This document shows positions 26,580 to 49,687 of a stretch of DNA of 64,000 nucleotides, piece after piece. The translations under genes and the position numbers were made by a program. The first letter of the stretch is position 1, and each line of letters opens with the position of its first letter. Source of the stretch: Pelagibius sp. CAU 1746 (GTDB lineage Bacteria; Pseudomonadota; Alphaproteobacteria; Kiloniellales; Kiloniellaceae); assembly GCF_039839785.1 (NCBI RefSeq), contig NZ_JBDOQT010000001.1:806001-870000 (forward strand). The letters are read 5' to 3'. The notes beneath the pieces were generated by a model. It saw only the letters and a list, made by a program, of their open reading frames with translations. It was not told where the DNA came from and made no database searches.

Positions 26580-27441
26580 CCGGGCGGCCGACCCGCTCCA
26601 GCAGCAGGCTCTTCATCTTCTGCAGCGCGCGCTGCTCGAGCTGGCGCACCCGCTCCTTGCTGACGCCGAGAGCCTGGCCCAACTCCTCCAGGGTCGCCGA
26701 GTCGTCGCTCAGGCGGCGGGCGCGGATGATGGCCTGCTCGCGCTGGCTCAGTTCCAGCAGGGCCTGCTCGATCCACTCGCTGCGGGTCAGGCCGTCGTGG
26801 ATGGAGATCACCAGGTCTTCCGGATTGGCGCGCTCGTCGGTCAATTGGTCCTGCCATTCGGTCTCGCCGTCCTCGCCGATGCGCACGTTCAGCGATTGGT
26901 CGGCAACGGCCAGGCGGCCTTCCATGTGGTTCACGTCGGCCAGCGGCACCGAGAGCTCCTCGGCGACGGCCTGACGGCCGTCGTCGTCGAAGGGGCGGCC
27001 CGAGGCTTCCTCGATGCGCGCGCGCAGGCGGCGGAAGTTGAAGAACAAGGTCTTCTGCGATGCCGTGGTGCCGGTGCGCACGATCGACCAGTTGCGCAGG
27101 ATGAAGTCCTGCATGGCCGAGCGGATCCACCAGGAGGCGTAGGTCGAAAAGCGGACGTTGCGCTCCGGCTCGAAGCGGCTGGCGGCCTGCAGCAGGCCCA
27201 GCGTGCCTTCCTGGATCAGGTCGCTCATCGGCAGGCCGTAGTTGCGGAACTTGGCGGCCAGGGAGACCACCAGGCGCGTGTAGGCGCGGATCAGCTCCTG
27301 CAGGGAATCCTCGTTGCCGTCTTCGCGCCAGGACCGGGCGAGGTGGTATTCCCTGTCGCGGGAAAGCAGGGGCTCGGCCATGGACTGCCGGATGAACCGG
27401 GCCTGGGCCCTCTGAGCCTGCGAGTCTTCGAATTGAGGCAT
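26557..27441 (-). CDS. rpoH: RNA polymerase sigma-32 factor (heat shock)
   Basis: 294 residues from ATG 27441 (gggaga upstream). Region 2 is NYGLPMSDLIQEGTLGLLQA and FSTYASWWIRSAMQDFILRN; the RpoH box QKTLFFNFRRLR follows directly and separates RpoH from housekeeping sigma. Region 4 ends SDDSATLEELGQALGVSKER then VRQLEQRAL. It directs transcription of heat-shock genes such as htpG, also in this window. The last codons and stop are repeated twice more downstream (26506-26579). It converges on the cyclase gene. Confidence 0.96.
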   Translation of the reverse strand: MPQFEDSQAQRAQARFIRQSMAEPLLSRDREYHLARSWREDGNEDSLQELIRAYTRLVVSLAAKFRNYGLPMSDLIQEGTLGLLQAASRFEPERNVRFSTYASWWIRSAMQDFILRNWSIVRTGTTASQKTLFFNFRRLRARIEEASGRPFDDDGRQAVAEELSVPLADVNHMEGRLAVADQSLNVRIGEDGETEWQDQLTDERANPEDLVISIHDGLTRSEWIEQALLELSQREQAIIRARRLSDDSATLEELGQALGVSKERVRQLEQRALQKMKSLLLERVGRPADLFAEV

Positions 27442-44298: not shown

Positions 44299-44486
44299 CG
44301 CGCGCCGGGCAAGTCTCCGCGGCAGCTTCTCCCGAAACTACGCTCTAAAGTTGTATTTTCCGCGACGTCCTTGCCGAGGAGGCGGGCCCAAAGGGAAGGT
44401 TAACCTCTGGAAAGTAAAATCGCCGGCGCAGCACGCCTGCAGCACGCATGCCTGCCGCACGAGGGTCAGCAGTACGCGCCGGGGCA

Positions 44487-45497
44487 ATGTCGGAACAGCG
44501 AAACGTCGAGGCCGCCGGGCAGTCCGGTGAAGGCCTCTCCGGACAATTGGAGTTTCTGGGCGATCTGAGCAGACGCCTGGCGGCGGCGGGCGATCCCGCC
44601 GCCCTGCTGGATGCCGCCCTGGCGGCGTCGCCGCAGCCGGGCGGCAAGGCCTTTGACCGGGCGCTGCGCGGGATCTCCGAGCTCGCCCTGGCCAATGCCG
44701 CGCTGCGCGAACGCCTTGCCGAGCAGAGGCAGCTCAGCGGCAGCCTGGAGATGGCGGCGGATCTGCAGCAGAGCCTGCAGCCGCAATGCACCGCCGGGCA
44801 CCAGCCGATCTGGGGCGTCAACCTGCCGGCGCGCAAGCTGTCCGGGGACTTCTTCGATTTCTACCGCCTCGACGAGGCGCGCATCGCCTTCGCCTTGGGC
44901 GACGTCTCCGGCAAGGGCCTGAACGCCGCCCTGTTGATGGCCAAGACCATCAGCCTCTTCCGCTGCCTGGGCAAGCGCATCGACGCCCCGGGCGACCTGC
45001 TGGAAGCCATCAACGCCGAGCTTTTCGAGACCGCCTCGCGCGGCATGTTCGTGACCATGGTCGCCGGCCACTACTGGCTCGCCAACGGCAAGGTCTGCCT
45101 GGCCAACGCCGGGCACCAGCCCCCGCTGCTGCGCCGCCGCGACCGCAGCTACGCTTCCTTCGAGGCCTCGATGCCGCCGCTCGGCATGTTGCCGTCCAAC
45201 CGGCCGCGCGAGGAGCATATCGACCTCGACGGCGGCGAGCTCTACGTCTTCTCCGACGGCCTCACCGAATACCGCTACGAGAGCGGCGAGGAACTGGGCG
45301 TCGACGGCTTGGTCCTGCTCATCGAGTCCCTGGCCGAGGCGCCGCTCGCCCAGCGCCTGGAAGCGCTGCTGGCGACCCTGGATCAGGACGGCGGCTGGGA
45401 AGCCCGCGACGACCTGACGGTGCTGGCCATCGACGATTCCTGGGTCTCCGCGGAGGCCGGCCTCGAGGCGCCCGCCCGGCGGCAGGAGGCGCCATGA
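44487..45497 (+). CDS. SpoIIE/RsbU-type PP2C serine phosphatase
   Basis: 336 residues from ATG 44487. Residues 1-100 are helical with no recognised sensor (a coiled stretch ends ALRERLAEQRQLSGSLEMAA). The phosphatase domain has all metal motifs: GDFFD (Asp121, Asp124), GDVSGKG (Asp139), FSDGLTEY (Asp257) and DDLTVLAI (Asp308, Asp309). Such enzymes dephosphorylate STAS anti-anti-sigma-type proteins. Its stop overlaps the ATG of the RsbW-type kinase (ATGA), which overlaps the STAS gene in turn, so the target protein is probably encoded two genes downstream. First gene of the Mla operon. Confidence 0.9.
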   Translation: MSEQRNVEAAGQSGEGLSGQLEFLGDLSRRLAAAGDPAALLDAALAASPQPGGKAFDRALRGISELALANAALRERLAEQRQLSGSLEMAADLQQSLQPQCTAGHQPIWGVNLPARKLSGDFFDFYRLDEARIAFALGDVSGKGLNAALLMAKTISLFRCLGKRIDAPGDLLEAINAELFETASRGMFVTMVAGHYWLANGKVCLANAGHQPPLLRRRDRSYASFEASMPPLGMLPSNRPREEHIDLDGGELYVFSDGLTEYRYESGEELGVDGLVLLIESLAEAPLAQRLEALLATLDQDGGWEARDDLTVLAIDDSWVSAEAGLEAPARRQEAP

Positions 45498-45943
45498 CCG
45501 CGGTGGCCGTCACCACGCCCGAGGCGGAATACCTGCTGGAGCTGCGCATTCCGGCGCGCAGCGACCGCATGGTCATGGTGCGCGACCTGGTGCGCAGCGC
45601 CGCGCGTTTCTGCGGCTTCGACGAGGCGGGCGCCCACGACATCGTGCTGGCGGTGGGCGAGGCCTGCCAGAACGTCATCCTGCATGCCTACGAGGGCCGC
45701 GGCGACGGTCCCATCCTGCTCGACATCCTGCAGAACGCGGACAGCATCATCCTGCGCGTCACCGACTTCGGCCCGGCCGTCGCGCCCGCGGCGGTCCAGC
45801 CGCGCGCGCTGCGCGACCTCCGGCCAGGCGGCCTCGGCACCTACTTCATCCAGAACCTGATGGACACCACGGACTTCGGGCGCTCGCCCAGCGGAGTCGG
45901 CAACGTGCTGCAGATGTCCAAGAAAAAGGATCCCTCCAAATGA
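45494..45943 (+). CDS. RsbW/SpoIIAB-type serine kinase (anti-sigma-factor-like ATP-binding protein)
   Basis: 149 residues, GHKL/HATPase_c_2 fold. The N box is VGEACQNVILHAYEG with Glu56 (catalytic base position) and Asn60; the G1 box is VTDFGP (Asp91, Gly93) and the G2 box GGLGTYFIQNLMD. These are the features of partner-switching kinases that phosphorylate a STAS protein and bind a partner in the unphosphorylated state. No sigma factor gene is nearby, so the partner here may be the Mla transporter or the STAS protein itself. ATGA overlaps at both ends. Confidence 0.9.
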   Translation: MTAVAVTTPEAEYLLELRIPARSDRMVMVRDLVRSAARFCGFDEAGAHDIVLAVGEACQNVILHAYEGRGDGPILLDILQNADSIILRVTDFGPAVAPAAVQPRALRDLRPGGLGTYFIQNLMDTTDFGRSPSGVGNVLQMSKKKDPSK

Positions 45944-46272
45944 GCGAAGCGGTCCGTGAAGTGAACGGCAATCTGGTGGTGAGCCTCACCGGAGAGATCG
46001 ACCTGGACCGGGCGCCGGAGGCGCGGCGCCTGCTGCTCGACTGCGTGAAGCGCAGCAAGGACGTCCTCGTCGACCTCTCGGCGGTGACCTACATCGACAG
46101 CTCCGGAATCGCCAGCCTGGTCGAGGCCCTGCAGTGGGCCAAGCAGCGCGGCACCGGCCTCTGCCTCGTGGCGGTCAGTCCCCAGGCCTTGCGCGTCTTC
46201 GAGCTGGCGCGCCTCGACACGGTCTTCGCGATCCATCCGGACCTCGCCACCGCCCTGGCGGGCGAAGCCTAG
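45940..46272 (+). CDS. STAS domain protein (anti-sigma-factor antagonist / MlaB-like)
   Basis: 110 residues, a single STAS domain. YIDSSGIASLVEAL holds the phospho-acceptor position (Ser55 by alignment to SpoIIAA Ser58) with Asp53. The start VREVNGNLVVSLTGEIDLDR is standard for SpoIIAA-type antagonists. In E. coli a STAS protein (MlaB) is a subunit of the MlaFEDB lipid transporter; here the STAS gene lies nine bases before mlaE, where mlaB would be expected, but it is also coupled to a cognate phosphatase and kinase. Confidence 0.9.
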   Translation: MSEAVREVNGNLVVSLTGEIDLDRAPEARRLLLDCVKRSKDVLVDLSAVTYIDSSGIASLVEALQWAKQRGTGLCLVAVSPQALRVFELARLDTVFAIHPDLATALAGEA

Positions 46273-46281
46273 GAGCCGGCA

Positions 46282-47073
46282 ATGCAGCGGGTCGCGGAAG
46301 GTATCGGCAAGGGCGTCGCGCGCGGCGCGGAGGAAGTCGGCTTCGCCGGCGCGCTTTTTTTGGAAGCCGTGCTCTGGGCCGTGCTCGGCCCGGCGCGCCG
46401 CCAGCCGGTGCGCCTTGCCGCGGTGGTCGCGCAGATGATGCAGATCGGCGTCGAGGCCCTGCCCATCGCCACCGTCCTGGCAGCGACCATCGGCATGATG
46501 CTGGCGATCCAGAGCCTCTACAGCCTGGGGCTCTTCGGCGCCGAGTCCTTCGCCACGGTGGGCATCGCGCTCTCGGTGGTGCGGGAGTTCGCGCCGCTGA
46601 TCGTCGGCATCCTCGTCGCCGGGCGTTCGGGCTCGGCGCTGGCGGCGCGCTTCAGCACCATGATGATCAACCAGGAGGTCGACGCCCTGCGCGTCATCGG
46701 CGTCTCGCCGGTGCGCTTCCTCGTGGCGCCGGCGCTCTTCGCCATGATGATCGTGGTGCCCTGCCTGACCATGTGGGCGAACATCGTCGCGCTCGGCGCC
46801 GCCGGTCTCTTCGTCACCGCGGAGCTGGACATCAGCCTCGCCGCCTACGCCGCCGACGTGGTGGCCTCGCTCTCCGTCAACGACCTGGCGCACGGCTTGG
46901 GCAAGAGCGTGCTCTTCGCCGCGCTGGTGGCGCTGGTCTCGGCGGTCAACGGCGCCCTGGCCGACGGCGGTGCCGAAGGCGTCGGCCGGCGCACCACCCG
47001 CGCCGTGGTGCAGTCCATCGCCGCGATCATCGTGGTCGACATGATCTTCGCCTTCGTCGTGACCGCGGGGTAG
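46282..47073 (+). CDS. mlaE: MlaE family ABC lipid transporter permease
   Basis: 263 residues with five or six helices. EFAPLIVGILVAGRSGSA is the conserved coupling segment of MlaE/DUF140 permeases; the FSTMMINQEVDALRVIGVSP that follows is the interface that meets the ATPase. The N-terminal amphipathic stretch has no STAS fusion, unlike some alphaproteobacterial MlaE proteins, which agrees with a separate STAS subunit. Spacing to mlaF is four bases. Confidence 0.93.
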   Translation: MQRVAEGIGKGVARGAEEVGFAGALFLEAVLWAVLGPARRQPVRLAAVVAQMMQIGVEALPIATVLAATIGMMLAIQSLYSLGLFGAESFATVGIALSVVREFAPLIVGILVAGRSGSALAARFSTMMINQEVDALRVIGVSPVRFLVAPALFAMMIVVPCLTMWANIVALGAAGLFVTAELDISLAAYAADVVASLSVNDLAHGLGKSVLFAALVALVSAVNGALADGGAEGVGRRTTRAVVQSIAAIIVVDMIFAFVVTAG

Positions 47074-47077
47074 GCCC

Positions 47078-47977
47078 ATGGCAGCCGTCGCTCAGGAAAC
47101 CCCGCTGCTGGAGACGACCCGGGACGCGGTCGTCCGGGTCCAGGGCCTGCAGGCGCACTACGGCGCCCGGCAGGTGCTGCACGATATCGATCTGACGGTG
47201 GCACCGGGCGAGATCATGGTGATCATGGGCGGCAGCGGCTCCGGCAAGTCGACCCTGCTGCGCCATCTGGTCGGCCTCATGCGCCCGACCGCCGGCCGCG
47301 TCGAGCTGCTGGGCACGGACATCGCCGGCGCCCCGGTCAGGGAGCTGCAGCGCCTGCGCCGGCGCATCGGCGTCGCCTTTCAGGGCGGCGCGCTGTTCAG
47401 CTCCATGAACGTGCTCGACAACATCATGCTGCCGCTGCGCGAGCACACGCGGCTGGACCGCAAGACCATGGAGATCATGGCCCGCCTGAAGCTGGAGGTG
47501 GTGAACCTCGCCGGGGCCGGGGCGCTGATGCCGGCCGAGCTGTCCGGCGGCATGGTCAAGCGCGCGGCCGTGGCGCGGGCCATCGTCATGGACCCGGCGC
47601 TGCTGTTCTTCGACGAGCCTTCGGCCGGCCTGGATCCGGCCGTTTCCTCGGCGCTGGATGACCTCATCCTGAAGCTGCGCGAGGCCATGAACATGTCCAT
47701 CGTCGTGGTGACTCACGAACTGGAAAGCGCCTTCAAGATCGCCGACCGCATCACGGTGCTGGACCAGGGGCGCATCCTCCTGGTCGACGACGTCGCGGGT
47801 ATCCGGCGCTCCGGCAACCCGCGTATCCAGAACCTTCTCAACCGCCGTGCGGAAAGCGCCGAGGTGGATGCAGAGGCCTACCTCCGGCGGCTCACCGGCG
47901 AGGCGGGGCCTGCGGACGGCCTCCATCCGCCTGTCGCCGGATCGGGCGGCAAGAACCAAGACGCGGGAGCGGTATAG
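47078..47977 (+). CDS. mlaF: MlaF family ABC transporter ATP-binding protein
   Basis: 299 residues. Walker A GGSGSGKST, Q-loop FQGGALFSSMNV (the GALF form is typical for MlaF), signature LSGGMVKRAAVARA, Walker B LLFFDEPSAGLDP and switch VVTHE. The C-terminal 50 residues form an extension beyond the ATPase core. Drives MCE-type phospholipid transport across the inner membrane to MlaD. Confidence 0.94.
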   Translation: MAAVAQETPLLETTRDAVVRVQGLQAHYGARQVLHDIDLTVAPGEIMVIMGGSGSGKSTLLRHLVGLMRPTAGRVELLGTDIAGAPVRELQRLRRRIGVAFQGGALFSSMNVLDNIMLPLREHTRLDRKTMEIMARLKLEVVNLAGAGALMPAELSGGMVKRAAVARAIVMDPALLFFDEPSAGLDPAVSSALDDLILKLREAMNMSIVVVTHELESAFKIADRITVLDQGRILLVDDVAGIRRSGNPRIQNLLNRRAESAEVDAEAYLRRLTGEAGPADGLHPPVAGSGGKNQDAGAV

Positions 47978-47981
47978 AATC

Positions 47982-49028
47982 ATGCGGCATCAGGGATTGA
48001 ACTACGCCGCCGTCGGCGGTTTCGTCACCGCCATGGTGGCGGCGGCCATCGGCGCGACGGTGCTGCTCAGCGGCGGCACGGGCCCGCGCGACAGCTACTC
48101 CCTCGTCTTCGACAATGTCGCCGACGTGAAGTTCGGCACCCAGGTGCGCTACGAGGGCTTTCCCGTCGGCCAGGTCGAGTCCATCGAGCCCATCGTCGAG
48201 GACGGCGCCACGGTCTTCCTGCTCGAGGTCTCGGTCGAGGAGGGCTTCGTCATCCCCGCCGACAGCGTGGCGCGGATCCATAGCTCCCAGTTCCTCGGCG
48301 CCAAGACGGTGGAGATCCAGCGCGGCAGCGCCGCCACCGCGCTGCAGCCGGGCGCCCGCATGGCTTCGGCCCCGGCCGCCGACATGTTCGCCGCCATGGC
48401 CAGCGTCGCCGGCCAGGTGAACGAGCTGTCGCGCGAGGGCCTGAAGCCGCTGCTCGACAGGCTGACCGCCTTGGTCGACAACGCCAACCACCTGCTCGAC
48501 GACGGCGTGGCGCCGATGATCGGTTCGCTCAACGCCGTGGCCGAGGACACCCGCGGGCGGGTGCCGGAGATCACCGGCGAGCTGCAGGCCTTCCTGCGGG
48601 AGCTGAACGTCACCCTCGCCTCGGTGCAGCAGCTCCTTTCGGAGCGCAACGTGGCGGAGGTGCAGCAGACGGTGGAGAACGTGAATACGGTCTCCCAGGA
48701 TCTGGTCGCCATCACCCAGACGGTGCGGGGGACGCTGGTCCAGCTCGACGGCATCGTGACCGCGCTGGAGGACGTCGTCGACAACAACCAGGGCAACGTC
48801 AACGCCGCCCTCGACGACACCCGCTACATCCTGCGCTCCATCGCCCAGAACATCGACAGCATCAATCACAACCTGGCGGGCACGTCCCGCAATATGAACG
48901 AATTCAGCCGGCTGATCCGGCAGAACCCGAGCCTGCTGCTGGGCGGCTCGGCGCCCGAGGAAGTGCGCGTCGAGACGCCGTCTGCCAATTCCCGGGCCAC
49001 CAGCTCCCGGTCACGGGGGGACAACTGA
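47982..49028 (+). CDS. mlaD: MlaD/MCE family substrate-binding protein
   Basis: 348 residues. One N-terminal membrane helix (YAAVGGFVTAMVAAAIGATV), one MCE domain (about 38-118: YSLVFDNVADVKFGTQVRYE and GFPVGQVESIEP), then a long helical C-terminal region (about 130-330) with heptad-like Leu/Val spacing that could form a periplasmic tunnel or needle. Such longer alphaproteobacterial MlaD proteins are usually paired with a PqiC-type lipoprotein, as here. ATG 47982 lies just after the mlaF stop. Confidence 0.93.
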   Translation: MRHQGLNYAAVGGFVTAMVAAAIGATVLLSGGTGPRDSYSLVFDNVADVKFGTQVRYEGFPVGQVESIEPIVEDGATVFLLEVSVEEGFVIPADSVARIHSSQFLGAKTVEIQRGSAATALQPGARMASAPAADMFAAMASVAGQVNELSREGLKPLLDRLTALVDNANHLLDDGVAPMIGSLNAVAEDTRGRVPEITGELQAFLRELNVTLASVQQLLSERNVAEVQQTVENVNTVSQDLVAITQTVRGTLVQLDGIVTALEDVVDNNQGNVNAALDDTRYILRSIAQNIDSINHNLAGTSRNMNEFSRLIRQNPSLLLGGSAPEEVRVETPSANSRATSSRSRGDN

Positions 49029-49687
49029 TGAAGCGCCTGATCCTTCTCGCCTGCGCCGCGCCGCTCCTGGCCGGCTGCCTCGGCTCGGCGCCGCCGGTGC
49101 CGCGCGACCACTACTACCGCCTGCTGGTGCCGACTCCCGAGCAGGGCGCCGCCGGGGTGCCGTTGGCCGGGATCATGACGGTGGAGCTGCTGCAGGCCGA
49201 CGGCCTGCTGCGCGAACGCCCGCTGCTGTACAGCGAGAGCGGCGAATCCTACGAGCTGCAGCAGCACAGCTACCACTATTGGAACGACGCGCCGCCGCGC
49301 ATGCTTCAGGACCAGATGGTGACCTACCTGCGGCGCAGCGGCATCTGCAGCCAGGTGGTCACGCCCGACGTGCGCATCCGCGCCGACTACCAGGTCAGCG
49401 GCAAGGTGCGGCGGCTTGAGCGGCTGCTCGGCGGCGGGCCGCCCAGGGTTTTCGTGGAGATCGAGTTGGCCCTGCTGCGGCTGACCGACGACCGGGTGCT
49501 GGTGGTGGAGACCTTCAGCGCCGAGGAGCCGGCGGAGGACGGGTCGGTGGAAGCCTCCATCGTCGCCCTGAACCGCGCCACCGCGCAGGTCTTCGACCGC
49601 TTCCTCTCGCAGGTCCGCCGCGCCGCCGCCCAGGCCACTGCTCAAGTCCCTGCCCAGGGCTTTGCCCAAGACCCTGTGAAGCGTTAG
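49028..49687 (+). CDS. PqiC/ABC-transport auxiliary lipoprotein
   Basis: 219 residues. Signal with lipobox LLAGC (Cys17). VPRDHYYRLLVP opens the ABC_trans_aux domain (PF03886), continuing RPLLYSESGESYELQQHSYH YWND-type strands, and ends with a short AQVPAQGFAQDP degenerate repeat. It overlaps the mlaD stop by one base (TGATG). Probably an outer-membrane lipoprotein docking the MlaD assembly. No MlaC-type carrier is present in the operon. Confidence 0.9.
   Translation: MKRLILLACAAPLLAGCLGSAPPVPRDHYYRLLVPTPEQGAAGVPLAGIMTVELLQADGLLRERPLLYSESGESYELQQHSYHYWNDAPPRMLQDQMVTYLRRSGICSQVVTPDVRIRADYQVSGKVRRLERLLGGGPPRVFVEIELALLRLTDDRVLVVETFSAEEPAEDGSVEASIVALNRATAQVFDRFLSQVRRAAAQATAQVPAQGFAQDPVKR

Follow-up and report, generated by a model that had tools for sequence, protein, structure and literature searches.

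The window analysed here, a 64-kb stretch of the 4.66 Mb genome of Pelagibius sp. CAU 1746, contains an operon of seven genes on the plus strand (positions 44487-49687) in which a phosphatase, a kinase and a STAS protein precede an MCE-type lipid transporter. The first gene (44487..45497) encodes a SpoIIE/RsbU-type PPM serine phosphatase of 336 aa (PF07228, E 3e-39), the second (45494..45943) an RsbW/SpoIIAB-type GHKL serine kinase (HATPase_c_2) of 149 aa (PF13581, E 1e-25) and the third (45940..46272) an RsbV-like STAS protein of 110 aa (PF01740, E 6e-22), a candidate switched subunit of the transporter. As in MlaFEDB, an MlaE permease (46282..47073, 263 aa; PF02405, E 1e-61), an MlaF ATPase (47078..47977, 299 aa; PF00005, E 4e-31) and an MlaD protein with a single MCE domain and a long C-terminal part (47982..49028, 348 aa; PF02470, E 9e-13) occur together, followed by a PqiC-type ABC_trans_aux lipoprotein (49028..49687, 219 aa; PF03886, E 3e-14) in which a lipobox-like LAGC was recognised by eye. 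ATGA stop/start overlaps join phosphatase to kinase (45494..45497) and kinase to STAS (45940..45943). The spacing is 9 bases from STAS to mlaE, 4 from mlaE to mlaF and 4 from mlaF to mlaD, and mlaD overlaps the lipoprotein gene by one base. This order, with its overlaps and gaps, had been described in the original prediction and was found in the sequence as given, so that the observation as a whole was confirmed, whereas its interpretation was supported in part. An in-frame ATG also lies at 44448, ahead of the phosphatase start; the Pelagibius marinus protein aligns from 44487.

To assess conservation, three overlapping sets of loci were used. The named loci are the best 80 of 211 confirmed by kinase similarity in a scan of a species collection (L082-L161); they share genomes with the relative loci (L054-L072) and the class loci (L192-L206), and the counts overlap. 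The nearest named record found was that of P. marinus NBU2595, with a kinase 94% identical, although near-identical records may be omitted. A kinase match was present in 23 of 58 relative genomes and was strong in 19 of them (20 matches), while two of the seven other genomes of the same genus (G002 and G004) had none. Apart from the window's own locus, all 19 strong relative loci that were fetched showed the order phosphatase-kinase-STAS-MlaE; 17 of these continue through MlaF, MlaD and the lipoprotein, and L059 and L062 end at contig ends. Three weaker relative loci (L079-L081) lack MlaE. Among the named loci, STAS follows the kinase in 80/80, SpoIIE is present in 79/80 (not in L144), MlaE follows STAS in 77 of 80 (77/79 readable, since L109 is cut right after STAS) and the series is complete to the lipoprotein in 65. 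By record title, 40 of them belong to Rhodospirillales or Rhodospirillaceae and 11 to Pelagibius or Kiloniellaceae/Kiloniellales; the other titles are Paramagnetospirillum, Terasakiella, Magnetovibrio, unplaced Alphaproteobacteria or Proteobacteria, five Marinimicrobia and one Gammaproteobacteria. Because the order recurs in 19/19 strong relative loci and 77/79 readable named loci, a chance gene neighbourhood was ruled out. Restriction to this one strain, which the original prediction had set as a possible refutation, was not observed: the arrangement recurs in many loci whose titles name Rhodospirillales, Kiloniellaceae and related groups, as well as in a handful from beyond the class.

A kinase match was present in 84 genomes of a 385-genome class sample (108 matches in all), and 16 of these genomes had one of at least 115 bits. 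MlaE follows STAS in 14 of the 16, the exceptions being G168 (L091) and G397 (L096), in none of the three genomes with a kinase of 93-113 bits, and in none of the 22 loci examined (L210-L231) out of 89 matches below 75 bits, for which some of the fetched stretches were short. In genome G268 (L340), which was outside those 22, STAS, SpoIIE and kinase genes share a strand and converge, tail to tail, on an operon of MlaE, MlaF, MlaD and lipoprotein genes, and the kinase reaches only 55 bits; a low kinase score therefore does not exclude linkage. The class sample was also searched with an MlaF alignment, using a threshold of >300 bits for the subfamily. Fourteen genomes hold such an MlaF, of which 13 carry the switch: 10 have it in the same operon, G268 has it in the tail-to-tail arrangement, and in G330 and G115 kinase, STAS and MlaE are on one contig and MlaF is wholly or partly on another. 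In the fourteenth, G367, the contig begins inside MlaE. Loci L205 and L206 have a more divergent Mla type and no SpoIIE. Outside the class, L249 has the same gene order, L248 has it from the kinase onward (where its contig starts), and L250 reads kinase-STAS-MlaF-MlaE-MlaD with SpoIIE farther along; a kinase match was found in one of five genomes of the L250 family.

The catalytic residues of the phosphatase and the N and G boxes of the kinase, originally described as intact, were confirmed by the Pfam matches and by alignments. Asp121, 124, 139, 257, 308 and 309 of the phosphatase are invariant in alignments of 18 of 20 loci; in a 42-row alignment Asp124 is not invariant and the other five remain so. 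Kinase residues Glu56, Asn60, Asp91, Gly112 and Gly115 are invariant in the 18 aligned loci. The STAS motif reads Y51-I-D53-S54-S55-G56, and DSSG is present in 80/80 named loci. A structural model of STAS (pLDDT 91.8; from an alignment of the window's protein with those of 71 of the 80 named loci) places Ser54 (codon AGC, 46099..46101) as the first residue of helix alpha-2. The window thus has a free STAS protein with D-S-[ST]-G at the start of this helix, as expected of a partner switch. We take Ser54 to be equivalent to SpoIIAA Ser58 and RsbV Ser56. Since the first serine of D53-S54-S55-G56 matches E. coli MlaB Thr52, as that residue is placed in the available text of PMC7367683 and PMC5016091, Ser54 is the predicted phosphorylation site; Ser55, originally proposed, is the wrong residue.

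According to the part of PMC7367683 that was available, Tyr261, Leu265 and Leu266 of the E. coli MlaF C-terminal extension lie between MlaB and MlaF. The E. coli tail was checked against its sequence, and YLRRL in the extension of the window's MlaF (47879..47893, plus strand) is the matching Tyr-x3-Leu element and the proposed STAS contact. The pattern Y[LMI]xxL was present in all 69 MlaFs that are complete among the named loci (the other 11 of the 80 were cut or without MlaF), in the window, in 8/11 class loci (four of the 15 were cut) and in 3/3 phylum loci. It was absent from both MlaF paralogues of the host genome and from all 20 comparator MlaFs, whose tails are of two other kinds. The tail is thus lineage-specific. 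Seven of the comparators had a fused STAS seen at the locus, and 13 came from loci where an upstream STAS was not ruled out; among 20 MlaE loci taken as STAS-fused by open reading frame (ORF) length, five showed no STAS. The pattern was fixed after the tails had been inspected, so that the counts show a contrast between groups but were not obtained blind. Two earlier patterns were dropped, a looser one that matched 10/20 comparators and a stricter one that missed genuine tails.

Switches of the RsbU/RsbW/RsbV type usually control gene expression, via sigma factors. A census of the host genome was made for possible partners. Of 15 HATPase_c_2 matches, the operon kinase scored 90 bits and the other 14, in frames of >400 aa, at most 29 bits. 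Two SpoIIE matches were found, the second of which fits PP2C better, leaving one convincing SpoIIE. Among five STAS domains, only that of the operon is free; three belong to SulP permeases, at whose ends they lie, and the fifth shares an ORF with an MlaE paralogue. The kinase thus has one free STAS partner in this genome, the Mla-linked one. No SigB/F/G-class sigma factor exceeded the curated cut-off in the host genome (best 133 of 234 bits), although other kinds of sigma client are possible. With a single high-scoring RsbW-type kinase, one convincing SpoIIE, one free STAS and no SigB/F/G above the cut-off, no other client is evident. The original statement that no sigma gene is nearby is true of the operon and needs amending for the window, since an RpoH-like sigma-70 ORF lies about 17 kb away (approximately 26605-27306, minus strand). 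This ORF scores 85.9 bits to TIGR02980, under the cut-off of that family, and is far below the SigBFG cut-off. The 80 named loci, each searched with at most 10 kb and often less of flanking sequence, showed no relative of it; the positive control of that search recovered the ORF itself and two paralogues in the host genome. On these grounds, control of a sigma factor encoded close by was rejected.

Taken with the conserved linkage, the intact enzymes and the MlaF tail, this closed set of partners favours the following reading, to which we give a probability of about 0.6: unphosphorylated STAS would bind and activate MlaF, the kinase would disable it by phosphorylating Ser54, and the phosphatase would restore it. 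The first three genes would then form a complete RsbU-RsbW-RsbV-type switch acting on the MCE transporter that the next four genes encode, rather than on a sigma factor. In the unphosphorylated state STAS, in the position of MlaB, would grip MlaF via its helical subdomain and the YLRRL tail of MlaF, leaving MlaF able to assemble or to hydrolyse ATP. The kinase would bind STAS and phosphorylate Ser54, and MlaF would be released or left inactive because Ser54, which opens helix alpha-2, is proposed to sit in the middle of the MlaF-binding surface. Removal of the phosphate by the SpoIIE phosphatase would allow transport to resume. Binding, phosphorylation, the sign of control and the signal are the parts of this scheme that we infer.

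Several observations weigh against it. The first concerns STAS itself, whose profile scores are 73 bits for TM1442, 54 for RsbV and 48 for SpoIIAA against 25 for MlaB, and whose model reaches a TM of 0.84 with RsbV and up to 0.88 with SpoIIAA, compared with 0.60-0.65 with MlaB. For this reason STAS was not filed as MlaB. The model also has a fifth strand (E97-99) and a C-terminal helix (H102-108), both absent from MlaB, and does not show the minimal four-stranded form of that protein. Judged by sequence and model, STAS is a full-length RsbV-type domain standing in the place of MlaB. The "MlaB-like subunit" of the original prediction is accordingly not of the minimal MlaB type. Its proposed role as the switched subunit of the transporter is partly supported by the MlaF tail and by a genome that holds no second free STAS or high-scoring RsbW-type kinase and no SigB/F/G above the cut-off. 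Furthermore, two named loci carry phosphatase-kinase-STAS without MlaE, followed in L091 by an ABC ATPase gene and in L096 by a glutathione S-transferase gene. In their genomes (G168, 81% complete, and G397) no subfamily MlaF was detected at E 1e-75 with six candidates per genome scored, and the switch may therefore exist without a transporter of this MlaF subfamily. The MlaF tails of L204, L205 and L206 deviate from Y[LMI]xxL, as do those of G367 and G268, which were outside the motif counts. A helix signature in STAS also proved less specific than its first counts suggested: A58, E62, Q65, L89 and R91 occur in 72/72 STAS proteins of the Mla group vs 0, 0, 0, 0 and 1 of 17 others, but the first four are also present in 8/9 STAS proteins of a presumably zetaproteobacterial family from beyond the class, with Lys at 91 and no MlaF detected. 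L091 and L096 retain the signature as well. Because it largely recurs in loci where no MlaF was detected and is kept in both exceptions, it was rejected as proof of MlaF binding.

The RsbV-like character of STAS and the two loci without MlaE would suit a switch that serves an unlinked client, such as a sigma factor, a regulator or an enzyme, and shares only its transcript with the transporter; operon context by itself does not demonstrate contact. We consider this unlikely, given that the genome has no SigB/F/G above the cut-off and no other free STAS, that no relative of the window's sigma ORF flanks the 80 named loci, that linkage persists in the rearranged loci L250 and L340, and that MlaF carries the tail motif.

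Conservation of the phosphosite is a further point on which the switch reading is exposed. By eye, Ser or Thr occupies this site in 16/16 STAS domains that share an ORF with MlaE (14 Thr, 2 Ser), and site conservation alone is therefore no proof of phosphorylation. For E. coli MlaB, the available text of PMC7367683 reports that T52E weakens MlaF binding, which speaks for the switch reading. The non-phosphorylatable T52A, however, stays bound with ATPase activity abolished, which the authors of that paper found hard to square with simple phosphoregulation; MlaB phosphorylation was left open there. The site conservation and the T52A result would fit a STAS protein that is a constitutive structural subunit, in which Ser54 has a structural or catalytic part like that considered for MlaB Thr52, with the kinase acting as an assembly factor without regulatory phosphorylation. 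This appears quite unlikely, as kinase Glu56 and Asn60 and the metal-binding Asp residues of the phosphatase are invariant in 18 loci (Asp124 varies in the 42-row alignment), consistent with two active enzymes of opposite effect.

The signal that would set the switch was sought in the N-terminal part of the phosphatase, where the original prediction had placed it. No GAF domain was matched in the window's phosphatase in a Pfam scan, and in its model only helices lie N-terminal to the phosphatase domain. Among the phosphatases of eight relatives scanned, seven had a GAF match at E 0.01, six of them above the cut-off of a GAF family, and the only one without was that of P. marinus; in another scan, with protein starts set too far in, GAF was matched in four of five at E 0.1. 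The Pelagibius rows of the phosphatase alignment lack the GAF core. A GAF domain ahead of the phosphatase is probably the signal input in most relatives scanned, and it has evidently been lost from the Pelagibius phosphatase, so that the signal must enter there by another route. The original proposal thus fits the GAF-bearing relatives better and Pelagibius more poorly: the signal would arrive via GAF in the former and by a non-GAF route in the latter. The need for another input in Pelagibius would also be served by a reverse flow of information, in which MlaF titrates STAS or the kinase and transport status is the input to an output elsewhere. The same linkage and motif data agree with such a flow; as the census, which covered the RsbW, SpoIIE, STAS and SigB/F/G families only, revealed no downstream client, we regard it as very improbable.

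Returning to the preferred reading, a transporter switched by its own kinase and phosphatase, the operon can be compared with several known systems. It resembles RsbU-RsbW-RsbV and SpoIIE-SpoIIAB-SpoIIAA of the sigma-B and sigma-F pathways: the three protein classes are the same, their genes lie side by side, the catalytic residues are intact, DSSG is present and the fold is RsbV-like. It differs in that the operon contains no sigma gene, the genome no SigB/F/G above the cut-off, and an MCE transporter is linked. PDB 3ke6, the RsbU-RsbW domains of Rv1364c, was among the fold matches of the phosphatase model. SpoIIE and RsbW likewise share one reading frame in 49/80 named loci, whereas in the window they are separate proteins joined to a transporter operon. 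With E. coli MlaFEDB the operon shares MlaE, MlaF, an MCE protein, a free STAS and an MlaF extension whose Tyr-x3-Leu element packs at MlaB. In contrast to that system, its STAS is 110 aa long and RsbV-like, with the additional strand and helix, and has its own kinase and phosphatase. It also has a PqiC-type lipoprotein and a long MlaD, and MlaC was absent from the Pfam matches of the operon genes, to which the search was confined. In the available text of PMC7790496, the features that distinguish "True Mla" include MlaC and MlaA as well as a limit of about 50 residues. Alphaproteobacterial STAS-MlaE single ORFs, such as the host paralogue L074 and the Liberibacter Lin system (PMC3688454, available in part), also have STAS before MlaE and Ser or Thr at the site. 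They differ in being fused, in the absence of a second high-scoring RsbW-type kinase from the host, and in the MlaF tail, which has no Y[LMI]xxL in the host's own paralogue and seven others.

Phosphorylation control of MlaB had been described originally as not established. The idea is already in print: the accessible part of PMC5016091 hypothesises MlaB phosphorylation by analogy with SpoIIAA, and neither there nor in the corresponding text of PMC7367683, the second of these two eLife papers, is an enzyme named. The operon supplies candidates for both kinase and phosphatase. In PMC3688454, as far as its text was available, STAS is fused to the permease and regulation is a guess, and no such switch operon is described in the available parts of PMC3688454, PMC10094684, PMC7790496 and PMC13066512 or of the two eLife papers. 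A search for papers that link partner-switch proteins such as SpoIIE and RsbW to Mla, MCE or ABC transporters found none, with most subscription journals and all bioRxiv preprints outside its reach. The presence of a kinase, a phosphatase and their expected target STAS in one lipid-transporter operon, in many relatives, suggests a transporter controlled by phosphorylation. That an ABC lipid transporter is gated by a serine kinase and phosphatase of its own, with STAS switching between kinase and MlaF, seems to us an evenly balanced proposition. If true, an ABC transporter would be under partner-switch control, partner switching would extend from transcription to membrane transport, and the question of phospho-regulation of MlaB-type STAS subunits would have a natural answer. 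As kinase and phosphatase genes are in the operon and conserved across many bacteria, post-translational control of envelope lipid transport is directly testable.

Some loci showed other arrangements of these genes. In L207, L208 and L209, from the three genomes with a kinase of 93-113 bits, which are 1.2-1.3 Mb in size, this subfamily's kinase stands alone: the 12 kb fetched contained no SpoIIE, STAS or Mla gene, and G154, a genome with a lone kinase, gave no MlaE match. In L253, L254, L255 and L258, of the family taken to be Zetaproteobacteria, MlaE and MlaD genes are followed downstream by a kinase-STAS pair, in a stretch where no MlaF was detected. L197 and L198 have two tandem STAS genes between kinase and MlaE, each with DSSG.

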